From NCBI RefSeq assembly GCF_013408145.1, contig NZ_JACBZI010000001.1, forward strand, positions 2,618,001 through 2,682,000: a stretch of DNA of 64,000 nucleotides, read 5' to 3'. The stretch is from Nocardioides marinus. Its GTDB lineage: Bacteria > Actinomycetota > Actinomycetes > Propionibacteriales > Nocardioidaceae. Of the stretch, positions 5,447 through 45,011 are shown in pieces. A program made the translations under genes and the position numbers. Numbering within the stretch: the stretch's first letter is position 1; each line of letters opens with the position of its first letter. The notes below the pieces were generated by a model, which had not been told where the DNA came from, made no database searches, and saw only the letters and a list, made by a program, of their open reading frames with translations.

Positions 5447-6409
5447 GTGACCCATGACGTCAGTGCTGACATCCCGTCCCTGCGGCAGCGGCCGGTGGGC
5501 TCGCCGTTCGGTGCGACCTCCACCGCCGAGGAGGTGCTCTCCGGCGTCGACCTGAGCGGCGCGCGCGCCCTCGTCACCGGCGGGTACGCCGGCATCGGGC
5601 TCGCCCTGGTGCGCGCGCTGGCCCAGGCGGGGGCCGAGGTCCTCGCGCCCGCGCGTCGACCGCAGGTGGCCCGCGAGGCACTCGCCGACGTCCCCGGCGC
5701 CACGGTGGCCGCCCTCGACCTGTCGGAGCAGCAGTCGGTGGCCACCCTCGCCGAGGCGCTCGACGGGCCGCTGGACCTGCTGGTCCTCAACGCCGGCGTG
5801 ATGGCCTGCCCCGAGACCCGGACGCCCGAGGGATGGGAGCTGCAGCTGGCCACCAACCACCTCGGGCACTTCTCGCTGGTCAACCGGCTGCTCCCCCACC
5901 TCGTCCCGGGCGGCCGGGTCGTGAGCGTGTCCTCGCTCGGTCACCACCACGGCGGGATGCACTGGGAGGACCCGATGTTCGAGCAGGACTACGCGAAGTG
6001 GCGCGCCTACGGGCAGTCCAAGTCGGCCAACGCACTGCTCGCGGTCCACCTCGCGGAGAGCGGCGTGGCGGCGTACTCACTGCACCCCGGCGCCATCCTC
6101 ACCGACCTCGGCAAGCACCTCACCGAGGCCGACCTGGACGACGTGCTGCTCACCGACGCCGATGGCAACCTCGTCGTCCCGTCGTTCAAGACCCCCGAGC
6201 AGGGCGCGGCCACGGCCGCCTTCGCCGCGACCTCCGACCTGTTGACCGACCGAGCGGGTGCCTACCTCGAGGACTGCGAGGTGGCGCCGCTGGTCGACGG
6301 CGAGGGCCTGGGCGACCACGGCGTACGACGCTGGGCCGTCGACCCGGCCGAGGCGGCTCGCCTCTGGGCCTGGTCGGCCGAGCTCACCGGGGTCGACGCG
6401 CTGCGCTGA
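5447..6409 (+). CDS. Short-chain dehydrogenase/reductase (SDR)
   Basis: NAD(P)-dependent oxidoreductase of the classical SDR family, about 320 residues and therefore of the longer retinol-dehydrogenase-like type. Seen: Rossmann motif TGGYAGIG, the NAG motif (LNAGVM), the catalytic Ser (VSVSSLG) and Tyr-x-x-x-Lys (YGQSK). The substrate is unknown. GTG at 5447 is the chosen start because family members begin close to the DIPSLRQRP sequence. A degenerate copy of the operator palindrome (5459-5470) falls just inside this start, so the true start may be a little further downstream, or the gene may share regulation with the sulfotransferase cluster. Confidence 0.85.
   Translation: MTHDVSADIPSLRQRPVGSPFGATSTAEEVLSGVDLSGARALVTGGYAGIGLALVRALAQAGAEVLAPARRPQVAREALADVPGATVAALDLSEQQSVATLAEALDGPLDLLVLNAGVMACPETRTPEGWELQLATNHLGHFSLVNRLLPHLVPGGRVVSVSSLGHHHGGMHWEDPMFEQDYAKWRAYGQSKSANALLAVHLAESGVAAYSLHPGAILTDLGKHLTEADLDDVLLTDADGNLVVPSFKTPEQGAATAAFAATSDLLTDRAGAYLEDCEVAPLVDGEGLGDHGVRRWAVDPAEAARLWAWSAELTGVDALR
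5459..5470. promoter_or_regulatory. Degenerate operator palindrome near SDR start
   Basis: GTCAGTGCTGAC matches the perfect palindrome found at 6915 and 8072 in 11 of 12 bases; the centre pair is changed. Flanking ACA on the right is shared with the 8071 site. It lies at the start region of the SDR gene. Confidence 0.45.
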
Positions 6410-6431
6410 CCGTGCGCCAGCGACCTCTCGG

Positions 6432-6890
6432 CTACCACTTCAGGTGGTGCGAGAGGTCTCCGACGAGGTCGACGTGCATGGTGCGGCTCTCGAACCACCA
6501 GGTGCCGTCGGGGCGGTGGAAGGTGTCGCGGTAGCGGCCGGCGATGATCGGCTGCAGCGCGAGGGCGTCGGTGGCCTGCAGGACGGTGAAGTAGGAGCGG
6601 CAGGAGGCGGTGCCGGACTCCTCGTCGACGTCGATGATGGCGTTGGTGGTCACGTGCTTGGTCCGCGGCGTACCGGTGTCCTCGTAGATCCGGGTGCTGA
6701 AGCCGTAGAGCTTGCGCACCCCCTCCCGGCCCTCGAAGACCGTCTCCGGACCGCCGCCCTCCTCGCCGTGGATGCGGCCGTGCGCGAAGAGGTCGGCCAC
6801 GCCGTCGAGGTCACCGGCGTCGATGAGCTCGGCGTAGGTGTGCAGGAGGTTCTCGATCTGGCGGGCGCTGTCAGCGCTGCTGGTGGGCAC
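6432..6890 (-). CDS. SnoaL-like / NTF2-fold protein
   Basis: About 152 residues with the SnoaL/NTF2-like fold: an N-terminal helix (IENLLHTYAELIDAGDLDG), LFAHGRIHG, and a C-terminal sheet segment ending in RTMHVDLVGDLSHHL. Proteins of this fold bind or isomerise small hydrophobic compounds and are frequent in steroid and aromatic catabolic clusters; the actual role here is unknown. GTG at 6890 is chosen because TATGCT (complement of 6897-6902) lies 6 nt upstream; ATG at 6914 would add eight residues but sits upstream of that box. It is divergent from the sulfotransferase gene, and their -10 boxes overlap. Confidence 0.75.
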   Translation of the reverse strand: MPTSSADSARQIENLLHTYAELIDAGDLDGVADLFAHGRIHGEEGGGPETVFEGREGVRKLYGFSTRIYEDTGTPRTKHVTTNAIIDVDEESGTASCRSYFTVLQATDALALQPIIAGRYRDTFHRPDGTWWFESRTMHVDLVGDLSHHLKW

Positions 6891-6928
6891 GCCGGCAGCA
6901 TAGGGTGCCGACATGTCAGTACTGACGT
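6891..6928. promoter_or_regulatory. Overlapping divergent promoters with palindromic operator
   Basis: On the plus strand TAGGGT (6901-6906) sits 6 nt before the sulfotransferase ATG; on the minus strand TATGCT (6897-6902) sits 6 nt before the GTG of the SnoaL-like gene. The two boxes share the bases TA. The perfect 12-bp palindrome GTCAGTACTGAC (6915-6926) begins at the third base of the ATG, covering the predicted transcription start. A repressor bound there could block both promoters. Confidence 0.65.
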
Positions 6929-8082
6929 TCGACGTCGACACCCTGGTCGCCGAGGCCCGCCGTAAGGAGGGCGTCGAGGACCTCGGTGACACCGGGTTCC
7001 GCGAACCGCTCGGGGTGCTCTGTGCGGCGTACGACGCAGCGCCGCTGTCGGAGGTGGGTCGCTGGATCCTGCGCGCCGGACTCGTCCACTCGCTGCGCAC
7101 CCGCCTGCGCACGCAGGAGTGGGTGCGCCGCCACCCGGAGATCCTCACCGAGCGCGTCGAGGACCCGATCGTGGTCGTGGGCATGATGCGCAGCGGCACG
7201 ACGCTCGTGCAGCGACTGCTCGCGGCCGACCCCGCCCGCTGCGCCGCGGCGGGCTGGGAGGTCCTCGAGGCCGCTCCCCCGCTGGACACCGATCCGGCCG
7301 ACCCCGCCCCGCGCATCGAACGCGGACTGGCCCGGGAGGCCCAGACGCGCGAGCACGCACCGGAGCTCTTCGCGATCCACCCCATGCACGCCCTGGAGGC
7401 CGAGGAGGAGATCGTCTTCCTCGCCGACGCGTTCCTCTCCCACGTGCCCGAGTCCGGCGCCCACGTCCCCGACTACCGGGCGTGGCTCGACACCCAGGAC
7501 CTCACCCCCGCCTACGACCACCTGCACCTGGTGCTGCAGCTGTTGCAGTGGCAGAAGCGCCTGCGCGGCGAGCCCGTGGGCAGGTGGGTCCTCAAGACGC
7601 CCGCCCACCTGGGTTACCTCGACACCCTGCGCGCCCGCTTCCCCGGCCTGCACCTCGTACACCTGCACCGCGACCCGCAGGAGACGATTCCCTCGGGGGC
7701 GAGCCTGAACACCGTGCTGCACCGCATGCACAGCGACACGGTCGACCCGCAGCGCATCGGCCGCGAGTGGCTGGAGCGGATGGGATGGACCCACGACCGC
7801 GCCCTCGACACCCGTGAGCGCTGGGCGCGGGACGCCACCGCACCGAGGGTCACCGACATCGCCTTCCGTGCCGTGGTGGCCGACCCCTGGCCCCAGGTCG
7901 CGCGGGTGCACGACGATCTCGGGACCCACCTCACCGACCGGGCGCAGGCCTCCATGCGCGCCTGGCTGGACCGGCGCCCACCGGACCCGCGCCGCCCGGC
8001 GTACACGGCCGAGGACTTCGGACTGACCCCGGCGGCCATCGCGGAGCGGTTCGCGCGGGAGAATCCTTTTTGTCAGTACTGA
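6913..8082 (+). CDS. Sulfotransferase family protein
   Basis: PAPS-dependent sulfotransferase-fold protein of 389 residues. Seen: the 5'-phosphosulfate-binding loop GMMRSGTTLVQRLL (near residue 95), a WVLKTPAHLGYL segment typical of the sulfotransferase_3 type, and HLHRDPQE (3'-phosphate binding). The acceptor is unknown. Transcription is predicted to start at the ATG (TAGGGT 6 nt upstream). Both ends of the gene lie in copies of the same palindrome: the first five codons are ATG-TCA-GTA-CTG-ACG and the last codons plus stop read TGT-CAG-TAC-TGA. It is part of the operator-linked cluster with the SnoaL-like, DUF1214-like and SDR genes. Confidence 0.85.
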   Translation: MSVLTFDVDTLVAEARRKEGVEDLGDTGFREPLGVLCAAYDAAPLSEVGRWILRAGLVHSLRTRLRTQEWVRRHPEILTERVEDPIVVVGMMRSGTTLVQRLLAADPARCAAAGWEVLEAAPPLDTDPADPAPRIERGLAREAQTREHAPELFAIHPMHALEAEEEIVFLADAFLSHVPESGAHVPDYRAWLDTQDLTPAYDHLHLVLQLLQWQKRLRGEPVGRWVLKTPAHLGYLDTLRARFPGLHLVHLHRDPQETIPSGASLNTVLHRMHSDTVDPQRIGREWLERMGWTHDRALDTRERWARDATAPRVTDIAFRAVVADPWPQVARVHDDLGTHLTDRAQASMRAWLDRRPPDPRRPAYTAEDFGLTPAAIAERFARENPFCQY

Positions 8083-8114
8083 CATGTGACCCCGATCACT
8101 GTTAGCGTCCCCGC
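8071..8114 (+). promoter_or_regulatory. Operator-controlled leaderless promoter of the DUF1214-like operon
   Basis: TGTCAGTACTGACA (8071-8084) is a perfect 14-bp palindrome. Its right half provides CTGACA (8079-8084), a good -35 box. After an 18-bp spacer comes TAGCGT (8103-8108), and 6 nt later the ATG at 8115. The palindrome therefore covers the -35 box, and it also contains the stop codon of the sulfotransferase gene. Confidence 0.65.
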
Positions 8115-9410
8115 ATGACGCCTCCCCCCACGGCCACCGCCGGTACGACGCTCGGGACCCACCCCGTCGCCACTCCCGCCCAGCACGCCCAGGAGCTGGC
8201 CGCGCTGGAGCTGGTCCGGCACCCGGTCGTCCGGGCCGCCCACGCCGCCGTCGCCGACACCTGGCTGGGCCGGGCCAAGGCCTCGCCCGCGATGCTCGAC
8301 CGCTTCGAGGCCGCCTTCGAGGAGGTGATGTTCTCGGCGGCGATGTGGTCCTCGAACTCCGACCCGCTGCACCCGCAGGTCACCTGCATCACCCGGCTCG
8401 CCCACCGCGTCGACGGCCACCGCGTGCCCGGCTCGCGGTGGGGCATCGACAACCCCGACACCGTCTACCGCGTCGTGCCGATCTCCGGGGACGAGCGCTA
8501 CGAGCTGCGCGGCCGCGTCGGCGAGGGCCGGATGACCGAGAACTACTTCACCTTGTGGAACCAGCACATGGGCACCGTCGACGTCCTCGACGGACGCCGG
8601 ATGCACGTCGAGCCCGACGGCAGCTTCGTGGTCACCATCGACAGCGACCCGGCCGGCGATCGGCCCAACCACATCCGCTCCGACGCCACCGCGCACGAGC
8701 TCTACGTCCGCGACGTCCTGCTGGACTGGGAGCGCGACGACCCCAACTCCTTCGAGGTCGTCCGCCTCGGCCCCGCCCCCTCGCGCCCCCGGTGGAGCCT
8801 CGACGAGCAGGCCGAGCGGACCGCCGCGATGATGGCGCACTTCGCCGACTTCACCGGGAAGCTCTCCCACGGCACCTACAAGCTGCCCCCCAACCACTTC
8901 TCGCTGGCCTGGTCGGCCGACCACACCGGCGCCATGCGCAGCCAGGTGTACGTCGCGGGGCGCTTCGACCTCGAGCCCGGCCAGGCCTTCGTCATCGACG
9001 TCAGCGACGGCGGCGCGGAGTACTTCACCGTCCCGCTGTCGAACATCTGGGGCACCACGCTGGAGATCGTGGACCGCACCGGGAGCCTCAACCGGGCGCA
9101 GTCCGAGCCCAACGCCGACGGGACCTGGACCTACGTGCTCTCGCCCGAGGACCCCGGGGTCCACAACTGGCTCGACACCGACGGGCTGCGCGAGGGCATC
9201 CTCACGCTGCGGATGGCGGAGTTCCCCGAGGGCGGGCCGCGCCCCGACCTCGCCGCCACCGGACGGGTCGTCGACCTCGCCGACCTCGACCGGGAGGTGC
9301 CGCACCTGCGCCGCCTGTCCCCCGGGGAACGCGCCGAGCAGCTGGCCACCCGCCGGGCGGCGTACCTGCGGCGGCTGCCGGAGGGACCGGCCGAGGGAGG
9401 GAACCGATGA
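8115..9410 (+). CDS. Conserved hypothetical protein, DUF1214-like
   Basis: 431 residues without signal peptide or membrane segments. It resembles the DUF1214/DUF1254 proteins: WGIDNPDTVYR in the first half, and YFTVPLSNIWG followed by DGTWTYVLSPEDPGVHNWLDT in the second. No enzymatic activity is established for this family; related genes often sit in lipid or steroid catabolic clusters next to SDRs. The ATG is supported by TAGCGT 6 nt upstream. Its stop overlaps the next SDR start (ATGA), so it heads an operon of DUF1214-like, SDR and substrate-binding protein genes. Assignment to DUF1214 is by recognisable motifs and is moderately sure. Confidence 0.7.
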   Translation: MTPPPTATAGTTLGTHPVATPAQHAQELAALELVRHPVVRAAHAAVADTWLGRAKASPAMLDRFEAAFEEVMFSAAMWSSNSDPLHPQVTCITRLAHRVDGHRVPGSRWGIDNPDTVYRVVPISGDERYELRGRVGEGRMTENYFTLWNQHMGTVDVLDGRRMHVEPDGSFVVTIDSDPAGDRPNHIRSDATAHELYVRDVLLDWERDDPNSFEVVRLGPAPSRPRWSLDEQAERTAAMMAHFADFTGKLSHGTYKLPPNHFSLAWSADHTGAMRSQVYVAGRFDLEPGQAFVIDVSDGGAEYFTVPLSNIWGTTLEIVDRTGSLNRAQSEPNADGTWTYVLSPEDPGVHNWLDTDGLREGILTLRMAEFPEGGPRPDLAATGRVVDLADLDREVPHLRRLSPGERAEQLATRRAAYLRRLPEGPAEGGNR

Positions 9411-10249
9411 CGCGCTGGCTCGTCACCGGCTGCTCCACCGGCATCGGCCGCGAGATCGCGCGCTGCGCGCTCGAGGCGGGGCACCAGGTGCTGGTCACCT
9501 GCCGCCGCACCGCCGACGTCGAGGACCTGGTCGCGGAGTTCCCGGGCCTCGCGGTCGCGCAGGCCCTCGACGTCACGGACCGCTCGGCGATCAGCGCGGC
9601 CGTGGCCGCCGCCGACGCGGCCTTCGGCGGCGTGGACGTCCTGGTCAACAACGCCGGCTACGGCTACCTCTCGGCGGTCGAGGAGGGCGACGACGCCGAG
9701 GTGCGCAGGCTCTTCGACACCAACTACTTCGGCGCCGTCGACATGATCAAGGCGGTGCTGCCCCAGATGCGCGAGCGGGGTGCCGGGCACGTCGTCAACA
9801 TCTCCTCGATGACCGGGCTGGTGGCCAACCCGCCCAACGCCTACTACTCCTCGACCAAGTTCGCCCTCGAGGCGCTCACCGAGGCCCTCGCCAAGGAGGT
9901 CGGCCCCCTCGGCATCAAGGTCCTGGCCGTCGAGCCGGGCGGCTTCCGCACCGACTGGGCCACGCGCTCGATGAAGGAGGCGGCCGCGCCGATCGACGCG
10001 TACGCCGGCGACGTGGGCGTCCGCAAGGACCTCATCAAGCAGTTCGCCGACCACCTGCCCGGCGACCCGCGCCGCGTGGGCGAGGCGGTGCTGATGCTGG
10101 TCGGCCTCGACGTCCCGCCGCTACGGCTGCTCCTCGGGGCGGACGTCCTGCAGGCGACGCGCGCCAAGCTGGCCGACCTCTCCGCCTCCATCGACGCGTG
10201 GGAGTCGGTCACGCTCGACGTGGGTCCGGTCCCGGCGGCGGGGTCATGA
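9407..10249 (+). CDS. Short-chain dehydrogenase/reductase (SDR)
   Basis: Classical SDR of 280 residues. Seen: TGCSTGIG (cofactor loop, residues 7-14), NNAGYG, catalytic Ser in NISSMTG and the Tyr-x-x-x-Lys signature YYSSTKFALEAL. The C-terminal half matches the oxidoreductase/SDR5-type subgroup acting on ketones or alcohols; the substrate is unknown. ATG at 9407 overlaps the preceding stop in ATGA and has a GAGGGAGGG ribosome binding site (9393-9401). Its own stop overlaps the start of the substrate-binding protein, so the three genes are co-translated. Confidence 0.88.
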   Translation: MTRWLVTGCSTGIGREIARCALEAGHQVLVTCRRTADVEDLVAEFPGLAVAQALDVTDRSAISAAVAAADAAFGGVDVLVNNAGYGYLSAVEEGDDAEVRRLFDTNYFGAVDMIKAVLPQMRERGAGHVVNISSMTGLVANPPNAYYSSTKFALEALTEALAKEVGPLGIKVLAVEPGGFRTDWATRSMKEAAAPIDAYAGDVGVRKDLIKQFADHLPGDPRRVGEAVLMLVGLDVPPLRLLLGADVLQATRAKLADLSASIDAWESVTLDVGPVPAAGS

Positions 10250-11757
10250 GCACCACGGGCACCAGGCGCCGGAGCGGCCCCACCCGGACGGCGATGCTCA
10301 CCGCCTCGACCGCGGTGGCCGCGCTCGTGCTGGCCGCCTGCGGCAGCACCGTCGCGCCCGAGACCGTCGCCCTGGCCGGCGGCGGGTCGGGCACGGCGAT
10401 CGGTGCCACCGGGTCCGGCACCGGTCCCACGGGGGTCGACGGCGGGGGCATCGCCACCGACGGCGGCGGCTCCACCGACACCGGCTCGGGCAGCACCGAC
10501 GGCACCGGCTCCGGGTCCGGCGACAGCGGCGGTGGGACCGGCGGAACCGGCGGCGACGGCGGTGGGAGCGCCGGACCGTCCGGTCCGCGGGCCCCGGACC
10601 CCGGGGGCACCGACAAGGGCGTCGACTGCTCCGGCCTCGCCGACGACACCGGCCTGGACTCCGACTCGATCACCATCGGCAACGCCACCGACATCAGCGG
10701 ACCGGTGCCCGGGCTCTTCGAGGAGTCCCAGAAGGCCACGCAGGCCTTCGTGGCCTACTTCAACGCCTCCGGCTCGACCATCTGCGGCCGGAAGCTCGAG
10801 CTGGTCACCTACGACACCCGCACCGACGGGTCGGCCGACCAGCAGGCGGCGGCCCGGGCCTGCGACGACGTGTTCGCCATGGTCGGGTCGATGTCGGCGT
10901 TCGACTCCGGCGGCGCGGCCACCACCGAGCAGTGCGGGCTGCCCGACGTACGCGCCATCACGACCACCAAGCAGCGCACCGCGTGCACCATCTGCTACGC
11001 CGCACAGCCGGCCGGGCCCGAGGAGTTCCAGAACGCGGTCCCGGACTACATCATGCGCAACCACGGGGGCGGCCAGAAGGCCGCGATGCTCTACCTCGAG
11101 GGTGGCGCGGCCACCGAGAACGGCCCCGCGCAGGTCCGGCACATGGAGAAGCGCGGGATGAAGTTCGTCTACGTCCAGAGCGTCTCCACCGCGGAGTTCA
11201 ACTATGCGCCGTACGTGCAGGCGATGAAGGAGCGCGGGGTGGAGACGGTGCAGTTCGTCGGCGCCAACCCGTTCTTCGGCCGGCTCGCGCAGGCCATGGC
11301 CCAGCAGGACTTCAAGCCCGAGCTCTACCTGCTCGACCCCACGGCCTACAGCCCCAACTTCACCGAGACCGGCGGCGACGCCGTGGTCGGCACGGTCGTC
11401 TTCGTGAACTTCCTGCCCTTCGAGGAGGCCCGGTCCAACGCCGAGATGCAGCTCTACCTGCAGTGGCTGGAGCGGGTCAGCCCCGGCAGCGACCCGGGCT
11501 TCTTCGGGCTCTTCGCCTGGTCGGCCACGCGCCTGTTCGTCCAGCGTGCCGCCAGCCTGGGGGGCGACCTGAGCCGCGAGACGCTCATCGAGGCGATGGG
11601 GTCGGTCGACGGGTGGACCAGCAACGGCCTGCACTCGCCGCAGAAGGTCAGCGCCAAGCGGATCGGCGACTGCTGGCGCTTCATCACGTGGACCGGCAGC
11701 ACGTGGAAGGCGCTGGAGGGCAGCAAGTACCAGTGCCGCGGCACCACCGCCGGCTGA
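10246..11757 (+). CDS. ABC transporter substrate-binding lipoprotein (branched-chain type), orphan
   Basis: Exported lipoprotein, 503 residues. A twin-Arg-like basic start (TRRR) and hydrophobic stretch end in the lipobox LVLAAC (Cys near residue 32). A low-complexity Gly/Ser/Thr/Asp linker of about 90 residues follows, then a periplasmic-binding-protein type 1 domain (SITIGNATDISGPVPG onward) of the leucine/amide-binding class. Such proteins usually feed an ABC permease, but no permease or ATPase gene is near, so it may serve a transporter elsewhere or act as a sensor/chaperone for the cluster substrate. The ATG overlaps the SDR stop in ATGA. The long linker is unusual but common in Nocardioides-type homologues, as far as I recall. 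Confidence 0.8.
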   Translation: MSTTGTRRRSGPTRTAMLTASTAVAALVLAACGSTVAPETVALAGGGSGTAIGATGSGTGPTGVDGGGIATDGGGSTDTGSGSTDGTGSGSGDSGGGTGGTGGDGGGSAGPSGPRAPDPGGTDKGVDCSGLADDTGLDSDSITIGNATDISGPVPGLFEESQKATQAFVAYFNASGSTICGRKLELVTYDTRTDGSADQQAAARACDDVFAMVGSMSAFDSGGAATTEQCGLPDVRAITTTKQRTACTICYAAQPAGPEEFQNAVPDYIMRNHGGGQKAAMLYLEGGAATENGPAQVRHMEKRGMKFVYVQSVSTAEFNYAPYVQAMKERGVETVQFVGANPFFGRLAQAMAQQDFKPELYLLDPTAYSPNFTETGGDAVVGTVVFVNFLPFEEARSNAEMQLYLQWLERVSPGSDPGFFGLFAWSATRLFVQRAASLGGDLSRETLIEAMGSVDGWTSNGLHSPQKVSAKRIGDCWRFITWTGSTWKALEGSKYQCRGTTAG

Positions 11758-11763
11758 CGCCGG

Positions 11764-12363
11764 CTACAGCGCGCCGCGCACCTGCTCGAGCGCCTCGGCG
11801 GTGAGCCTGCCGAGGGCCGCGACGTCGTGGGGCCCCGGTCCCTCGGTCCACACCGCCAGGGCGGCGAACACGGCTCCCGCCAGCACCTCGGCCCGGACGG
11901 CGGCGGCGAGCTCGTCCACACCCCGCTCGACCAGCACCTCACGGACCTCGCGGGCCATCGCCCCCTGGCGGTCACGGAAGACGCGCTCGATCCGCTCGGG
12001 GCTCAGCAGCTCCGAGCGGAGTCGGGCGATCTCGACCATGAGCCGCAGGTCGATGGGCGCCGAGGCCAGCGAGTGGCGCACCGACTCCCGGAGGTCCTCC
12101 TCGGCCGGCCGCTGGCGCAACGCCCTGCGGAACCACTCCAGGCGGGTGGTGAGGTCCCCGAAGAGCACCTCGTCCTTGGTCGCGAAGTGGCGGTAGAAGG
12201 TCCGCTCGGTGACACCGCACTGGGCCGCGATCGCCGGCACGCTGGCGCGGTCGAACCCGTGCTCCACGAAGTGCTGGAGCGCCACGTCGCGCAGGGCCGC
12301 ACGGGTGCGGGCGGACTTCCCCGGCGGCAGGTCGGGGTCGCGCGTGACGGGCGCCTCGGACAT
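11764..12363 (-). CDS. TetR family transcriptional regulator
   Basis: 199 residues with an N-terminal TetR helix-turn-helix (about residues 18-65; VPAIAAQCGVTERTFYRHFATKDEVL) and a helical ligand-binding domain. It is convergent with the substrate-binding protein gene, just 6 bp away. TAGGGT (complement of 12370-12375) lies 6 nt before the ATG. It is the only regulator in the 5.4-12.4 kb cluster and is the natural candidate to bind the GTCAGTACTGAC palindromes, yet its own promoter lacks that sequence, so this link is inference only. Confidence 0.88.
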   Translation of the reverse strand: MSEAPVTRDPDLPPGKSARTRAALRDVALQHFVEHGFDRASVPAIAAQCGVTERTFYRHFATKDEVLFGDLTTRLEWFRRALRQRPAEEDLRESVRHSLASAPIDLRLMVEIARLRSELLSPERIERVFRDRQGAMAREVREVLVERGVDELAAAVRAEVLAGAVFAALAVWTEGPGPHDVAALGRLTAEALEQVRGAL

Positions 12364-12449
12364 GGCACGACCCTAGTCGCTGGGCCGCCTACCCGGGCCG
12401 AGGCCCGGAACGGCGTACGCCACCGCCCGGGACCCGACATCATGGCGGG

Positions 12450-44182: not shown

Positions 44183-44866
44183 ATGGGAACCCGGGAGGAA
44201 CCCCAGACCCTCGCCGACGCGCTCGCTGAGCTCGCCGACCTGAGGGCGCGGGTGGACAACGCGCAGATGCTCGCGAACATGGGCGACTACGACTGGCACA
44301 TCGAGACCGACACCAACACCTGGTCCGACCAGCTCTTCCGCATCTACGGCTACGAGCCGGGCCAGATCATGGCCTCCTATGAGGTGTTCCTGCAGCACAT
44401 CCACCCCGAGGACCGCGAACGCATCCAGTCGGTGCACCAGCACGCCTATGCCACGGGCGAGCCGTACCAGATGATCGAGCGGATCCTGCGACCCGACGGC
44501 GAGCTGCGCTACCTCGCCTCCAACGGCCAGGTCGTCACCGACGCCAACGGCACCCCGCTGCGCATGCGCGGCACCTGCATCGACATCACCGACCGGGTGC
44601 GCGCCGAGCAGGCCCAGGAGGAGACCGCCGTCCGCCTGGCCGAGGAGCTGCAGGCGCGCCGCCAGGCCGCCGAGCTCAACGACAACGTCGTCCAGGGCCT
44701 CACCGCCGCGTCGTACGCCGCCGAGCTGGGCGACCTGGAACGCACCAAGGCCTACGTCGCCGAGACGCTCGCCAAGGCCTCGAAGATGCTCGACGACCTC
44801 ATGCTCGCCGGTGGTGACCCCGACCTCACCCGTCAGGACGCCGCCCGCCTGGGCGACCCCACCTGA
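44183..44866 (+). CDS. PAS-domain protein with degenerate histidine-kinase dimerisation helix
   Basis: 227 residues, soluble. A coiled N-terminal segment, then a PAS_3/PAC domain (MGDYDWHIETDTNTWSDQLF to RGTCIDITDRV) followed by a long helix with LNDNVVQGLTAASYAAELGD. That helix resembles the dimerisation segment of actinobacterial kinases (usually LHDDVVQGL), but the His is Asn and no ATPase domain follows, so it cannot autophosphorylate. It may be a sensor dimer or regulator of a real kinase. ATG at 44183 with GAAGG ribosome binding site. Confidence 0.75.
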   Translation: MGTREEPQTLADALAELADLRARVDNAQMLANMGDYDWHIETDTNTWSDQLFRIYGYEPGQIMASYEVFLQHIHPEDRERIQSVHQHAYATGEPYQMIERILRPDGELRYLASNGQVVTDANGTPLRMRGTCIDITDRVRAEQAQEETAVRLAEELQARRQAAELNDNVVQGLTAASYAAELGDLERTKAYVAETLAKASKMLDDLMLAGGDPDLTRQDAARLGDPT

Positions 44867-44994
44867 CCCACCCCACCCCGCCGAACCGGCGTATCAATAC
44901 GCCGACTCGACCCACCCCGCCCGCCGAACCGGCGTATCAATACGCCGACTCGACCCACCCCGCCCGCCGAACCGGCGTATCAATACGCCGGCTC
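44865..44994. repeat. Three tandem 43-bp repeats, each with a palindrome
   Basis: Units at 44865-44908 (44 bp), 44909-44951 and 44952-44994 are nearly identical. Each carries CGGCGTATCAATACGCCG (8-bp arms, CA centre), at 44887, 44930 and 44973, so the palindromes repeat every 43 bp. They fill the gap between the convergent PAS gene (stop codon inside unit 1) and the acylase gene. The AT-rich centre stands out from the C-rich spacers. Confidence 0.92.
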
Positions 44995-45011
44995 GGCAGG
45001 ACGGGTGAGGG

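Follow-up and report, generated by a model that had tools for sequence, protein, structure and literature searches.

A putative local TetR-type repressor and its palindromic sites at a sulfotransferase gene cluster in Nocardioides marinus

INTRODUCTION

Local repressors of the TetR/AcrR family share a short palindromic operator with a divergently transcribed operon and commonly, not universally, regulate their own genes as well. Actinobacterial members include the steroid regulators KstR and KstR2, which govern gene sets containing short-chain dehydrogenases (SDRs) and whose operator motifs are TNNAACNNGTTNNA and a CAAG/CTTG palindrome. Structures are known for the Streptomyces TetR proteins SCO3201 and SCO0337. 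The mycofactocin regulator MftR, also a TetR protein, has the operator T-N2-GGCA-N5-TGCC-N2-A (PMC8728441).

Here we analyse a stretch of 64,000 nucleotides from Nocardioides marinus (the window; positions 2,618,001 to 2,682,000 of contig NZ_JACBZI010000001.1), in which three palindromic sites, A, B and C, lie around a sulfotransferase gene cluster that ends with a TetR gene. The locus has in common with the local repressors the TetR_N domain and fold and a short palindrome over a -35 box and, in most relatives of the window, the divergence of regulator from target. It differs from them in that the TetR gene of the window stands at the cluster end and has no operator before it, and in having two extra sites. 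MftR is the best NCBIfam match of this TetR and is among its nearest solved structures; the TIGR03968 equivalog cut-off is missed (64.8 versus 224.9 bits) and the sites, which read TGTCAG-N2-CTGACA, differ from the MftR operator. SCO3201 and SCO0337 are nearest in fold and sequence among PDB entries, yet only 25-29% identical. KstR2 is a weak sequence match, and direct comparison of the KstR/KstR2 motifs with sites A-C gave no match. Judged by sequence, the locus very probably holds a local TetR switch of ordinary type, itself undescribed, and unusual in the relocation of its regulator and in its probable extra sites.

METHODS

Whole-genome statistics combine a motif search of the complete genome, a single 4.11-Mb contig of which the window is part, with a base-composition model. 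Promoters were read by eye from the sequence. Relatives came from one public genome collection, which yielded 80 loci; within the genus sample, nine genomes, N. marinus included, encode a close orthologue of the sulfotransferase (identity of at least 65% in the others). TetR was scored as present among 295 genomes of the family at an E-value of at most 1e-40, giving 12 genomes.

RESULTS

Genes of the cluster

Genes were assigned by Pfam. SDR1, a PRK06196-like short-chain dehydrogenase (5447-6409, forward strand; start uncertain, perhaps GTG 5447), is followed by a SnoaL_4-like protein gene on the reverse strand (6432-6890, probable leaderless start GTG 6890) and, on the forward strand, by a sulfotransferase gene (Sulfotransfer_3, 6913-8082) whose stop codon lies inside operator C. 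The next forward-strand gene, the main conserved putative target, encodes a DUF1214-like protein (8115-9410) with a weak Pfam match just under the gathering cut-off. SDR2, a PRK06180-like short-chain dehydrogenase (9407-10249, forward), lies 3' of it here and in relatives too, and a type I ABC-transporter substrate-binding protein gene (Peripla_BP_6; 10246-11757, forward) ends the operon, convergent with the gene for the TetR-family regulator (11764-12363, reverse), the proposed cognate repressor. PDB matches were chains 2zq5 and 2z6v for the sulfotransferase and 6ans for the DUF1214-like protein.

An initial sequence-only reading of the window had joined these genes, the TetR gene apart, into one putative catabolic unit, and the order SnoaL-sulfotransferase-DUF1214-SDR is indeed kept in more than 70 genomes. 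The gene set, widely conserved across Actinobacteria and in some Myxococcales, is apparently unstudied in the literature searched, and the open-access papers searched describe neither the motif nor the cluster; the 12-mer occurs as a string in one Yersinia paper. For the sulfotransferase no orthology to Mycobacterium tuberculosis genes was established; Rv3529c-Rv3531c occur only as annotated names in PMC6429209. In the window a long low-complexity stretch rich in glycine, serine and threonine (10440-10610) follows the lipoprotein-like start of the binding protein. A likely branched-chain-type ABC transporter, its genes judged by sequence, lies beside the cluster in one relative (L138:10335-18001), with binding proteins 46-56% identical to that of the window.

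Palindromic sites

The same reading had listed perfect palindromes at 6915-6926 and at 8071-8084, the latter of 14 bp, and a one-mismatch copy at 5459-5470; all are present in the sequence. Operator C (8071-8084) is the 14-bp perfect palindrome TGTCAGTACTGACA, operator B (6914-6927) is TGTCAGTACTGACG, and operator A (5458-5471) is CGTCAGTGCTGACA, with the 12-bp core GTCAGTGCTGAC at 5459-5470, the reverse complement of the operator in loci L110 and L171. The exact 12-mer GTCAGTACTGAC occurs in the window at 6915-6926 and 8072-8083, and these are its only two places in the complete genome. With at most one mismatch there are four sites genome-wide, three of which are A, B and C. When the two central bases are left free, as they vary in relatives, the pattern GTCAGNNCTGAC is found four times in the genome, three of them inside 2.6 kb, against about 3.3 per genome and 0.002 per 2.6 kb expected from base composition (GC 0.73). 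These counts answer the concern that the site C motif might be equally common elsewhere in the genome. Under a simple composition model, with the span picked after the sites had been seen, two further copies of the pattern would fall within 2.6 kb of C by chance with P of about 2e-6.

A scan restricted to the window is not significant (three matches to the 12-mer with at most two mismatches, 1.86 expected), and 12-bp palindromes present twice in its 64 kb number seven in all. The significance of the palindromes rests on their clustering, their genome-wide rarity and their conservation, not on the window count. The pattern as a whole is not chance.

A wider regulon, also suggested at the outset, is not borne out: the whole genome holds 39 sites within two mismatches of TGTCAGNNCTGACA versus 46 for a reversed control. 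Two sites elsewhere in the genome were rejected as extra operators, GTCAGTCCTGAC at genome position 3797566, which is inside a reading frame, and TGTCGGGTCTGACA at 74196, which is not beside a clear gene start. In another genus, two exact GTCAGTACTGAC sites are common to the genomes G148 and G164 (loci L007, L010, L018 and L019), where their flanks are the same in both (GGCTAG..ATCAGA and GAGAAG..GAGGTA), and no link of these to the sulfotransferase cluster was seen.

Promoters and their overlap with the sites

The cluster region gave no promoter calls in a simple sigma-70 scan; the following were read from the sequence. The putative leaderless promoter of the DUF1214-like gene (8079-8117, forward) has a -35 box CTGACA at 8079-8084, 18 bp of spacing, a -10 box TAGCGT at 8103-8108 and, 6 nt on, ATG 8115, as it had been read earlier. 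The right arm of site C doubles as its -35 box, so that the short inverted repeat lies over the target promoter, with the same geometry in most relatives that have a recognizable -10 box. The sulfotransferase promoter (forward) has TAGGGT at 6901-6906, 6 nt before ATG 6913, and that of SnoaL (reverse) has TATGCT at 6902-6897, 6 nt before GTG 6890. The TetR promoter (12361-12380, reverse) has TAGGGT 6 nt before ATG 12363 and is without operator. This constant -10-to-start spacing suggests leaderless mRNAs.

Site B had been placed over the start of transcription of the sulfotransferase gene, abutting the SnoaL promoter. It does overlap that start, as well as the -35 region of SnoaL, which is divergent; more exactly, the 6915 site begins inside ATG 6913 and lies at about +3 to +14 of the probably leaderless mRNA, overlapping the opening codons, initiation codon included (MSVLT). 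Site A lies within the first codons of the SDR1 frame, codons 5-8 if GTG 5447 is the start, and no clear -10 box precedes it. At the other end of the sulfotransferase gene, the stop codon (8080-8082) is overlapped by the 8072 site.

The last sulfotransferase codons and the stop (8062-8083) run into operator C in the window; in loci L050, L121 and L135 the matched protein stops about 30 bases short of the operator. Between SnoaL and sulfotransferase (6888-6915) the divergent -10 boxes overlap (AGCATAGGGT), both genes being probably leaderless, and AGCATAGGNT in this divergent region is retained in most relatives examined.

Conservation among relatives

Site C is kept before the DUF1214-like gene in 14 Nocardioidaceae loci, the window included, which settles in its favour the question of conservation upstream of orthologues. 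Across these loci its half-sites are nearly invariant, its centre is variable and its flanks have diverged; the extended consensus is approximately ATTTTGTCAGNACTGACATTTT. Operator and -10 box are 17-18 bp apart in most loci with a readable -10, the geometry of the window.

A search for full copies of site B around the SnoaL/sulfotransferase promoter in 13 relatives, and of site A at the SDR1 start in 12, gave none. The two therefore look like lineage-specific or very labile additions, B being probably lineage-specific, and a function is less sure for them than for C. At the sulfotransferase start L050 has GAGCAGGACTGACATTTT, with one arm intact.

The TetR regulator

The N-terminal helix-turn-helix domain of the TetR protein is recognized by Pfam TetR_N (E = 8.8e-15). 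Its AlphaFold2 model (pLDDT 87) has the all-helical TetR fold, with TetR regulators as its PDB matches; SCO3201, SCO0337 and MftR are nearest, and the acyl-CoA-binding TetRs DesT, FadR and FasR stand lower in the match list, which for an acyl-CoA-type ligand is only a hint. Orthologues in relatives are 63-78% identical, and the recognition-helix region TERTFYRHF is conserved.

In most relatives the orthologue is divergent from the DUF1214-like gene, with the operator between them and common to both, the classical arrangement for self-repression. In the window, as in L050/L132 and L121/L134, the TetR gene instead follows the binding-protein gene and is without its own operator; the L135 contig ends before that point. 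In N. marinus the gene is 3.7 kb from site C. The absence of the motif from its own promoter, noted earlier, holds: no operator is found upstream of 12363 in the window, whereas most relatives have one before the TetR gene.

Regulator and operator are inherited together. Exact TGTCAGNNCTGACA is present in 10 of the 12 genomes with the TetR and in 14 of the 283 without it (Fisher p = 1e-10, the genomes not being independent). One of the two exceptions, G270, carries CGTCAGTACTGACA where the operator is expected; the other, G061 (L170:8491-9135), has a TetR 66% identical to that of the window and neither the sulfotransferase cluster nor an operator in its vicinity. Among 73 operon copies that lack the TetR, mostly from mycobacteria with some from Acidimicrobiales and Myxococcales, none was found to have the operator before DUF1214. 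In eleven further cases, with more distant TetRs (identity of about 39-43% where aligned), TGTCA-N4-TGACA stands no more than about 70 bp upstream of the TetR gene, with at most two mismatches. The TetR at 11764-12363 is very probably the cognate regulator of the palindromes, because its divergent orthologues share the site, the two co-occur, TetR-less copies lack the operator and distant TetRs have palindromes of their own. The early choice of regulator gene thus fell on the right candidate.

Upstream of the distant TetRs of L180-L182 lies a pair of neighbouring TGTCA-N4-TGACA-like sites, spaced by about 20 bp. Before SnoaL, TetR-less operon copies have partial matches (GGTCAGTTCTGCCA) that look like a different element; mycobacterial copies (L055:5496, L065:5497, L069:5479, L085:5488 and L119:5511) share GTTGGGTCAGTTCTGCCAAC there, possibly the site of another regulator.

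DISCUSSION

We consider it likely that the TetR-type protein encoded at 11764-12363 is a local repressor acting through the palindromes as its operators. Bound to site C, a ligand-free dimer would hide the -35 box from which the probably leaderless DUF1214-SDR2-binding-protein operon is read; at site B it would cover the beginning of the sulfotransferase transcript together with the -35 region of divergent SnoaL, and at site A the start of SDR1. Release would come from a small-molecule inducer, which may be a substrate or intermediate of the cluster enzymes.

An origin of the repeats by chance, or as recurring coding motifs, might be argued from the other duplicated palindromes of the window and its non-significant scan. 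Rarity across the genome combined with clustering, and conservation across genera against diverged flanks, make this highly improbable overall and refute it for site C. A weightier alternative, still unlikely, is that C alone is a functional TetR operator, A and B being chance or non-functional copies in coding sequence. C is kept in all orthologous loci with the TetR while A and B are not, both of these lie in reading frames, and A has no recognizable promoter. Against this stand the low chance probability of two more such patterns so near to C, the start of B exactly at a leaderless start codon, and the one-arm remnant CAGGACTGACATTTT that L050 retains at its sulfotransferase start.

The other two alternatives accept the sites and concern the protein. 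Some TetR proteins activate, and NCBIfam names mycobacterial FasR an activator; an activating or dual role here is nevertheless quite improbable, since C over a -35 box and B over a transcription start occupy positions typical of repression. A shade less probable still is a regulator encoded elsewhere, with the TetR of the cluster incidental. In N. marinus that TetR neither adjoins the sites nor regulates itself, which would suit such a reading, but in relatives the orthologous gene is divergent across the site, site and TetR co-occur far beyond expectation, and distant members of the same subfamily have similar palindromes before their own genes.

A local repressor with several operators also suggests a history. 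The ancestral layout, retained in most relatives, would have had the TetR gene divergent from DUF1214 across one shared operator, with self-repression; in the lineage of the window the gene would have shifted to the cluster end and self-repression been lost, and in the N. marinus genome two further promoters would have gained sites. The full proposal, of an actinobacterial TetR subfamily that recognizes TGTCA-N4-TGACA, in which a repressor left its own operator and lost self-repression while two new promoter operators evolved, one of them in a leaderless start codon, is tentative, and we put it at slightly below an even chance. If true, it would be a natural rewiring of a self-limiting switch into a multi-site repressor without feedback. 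The relatives form a clear series in which the position of the regulator changed and the operator stayed, and the specific candidate regulator-operator pair could help to find the inducer and hence the substrate of the cluster.

Elsewhere in the window, directly 3' of a stop codon, three tandem 43-bp units (44865-44995) each contain the hairpin-forming CGGCGTATCAATACGCCG, perhaps a repeated terminator.
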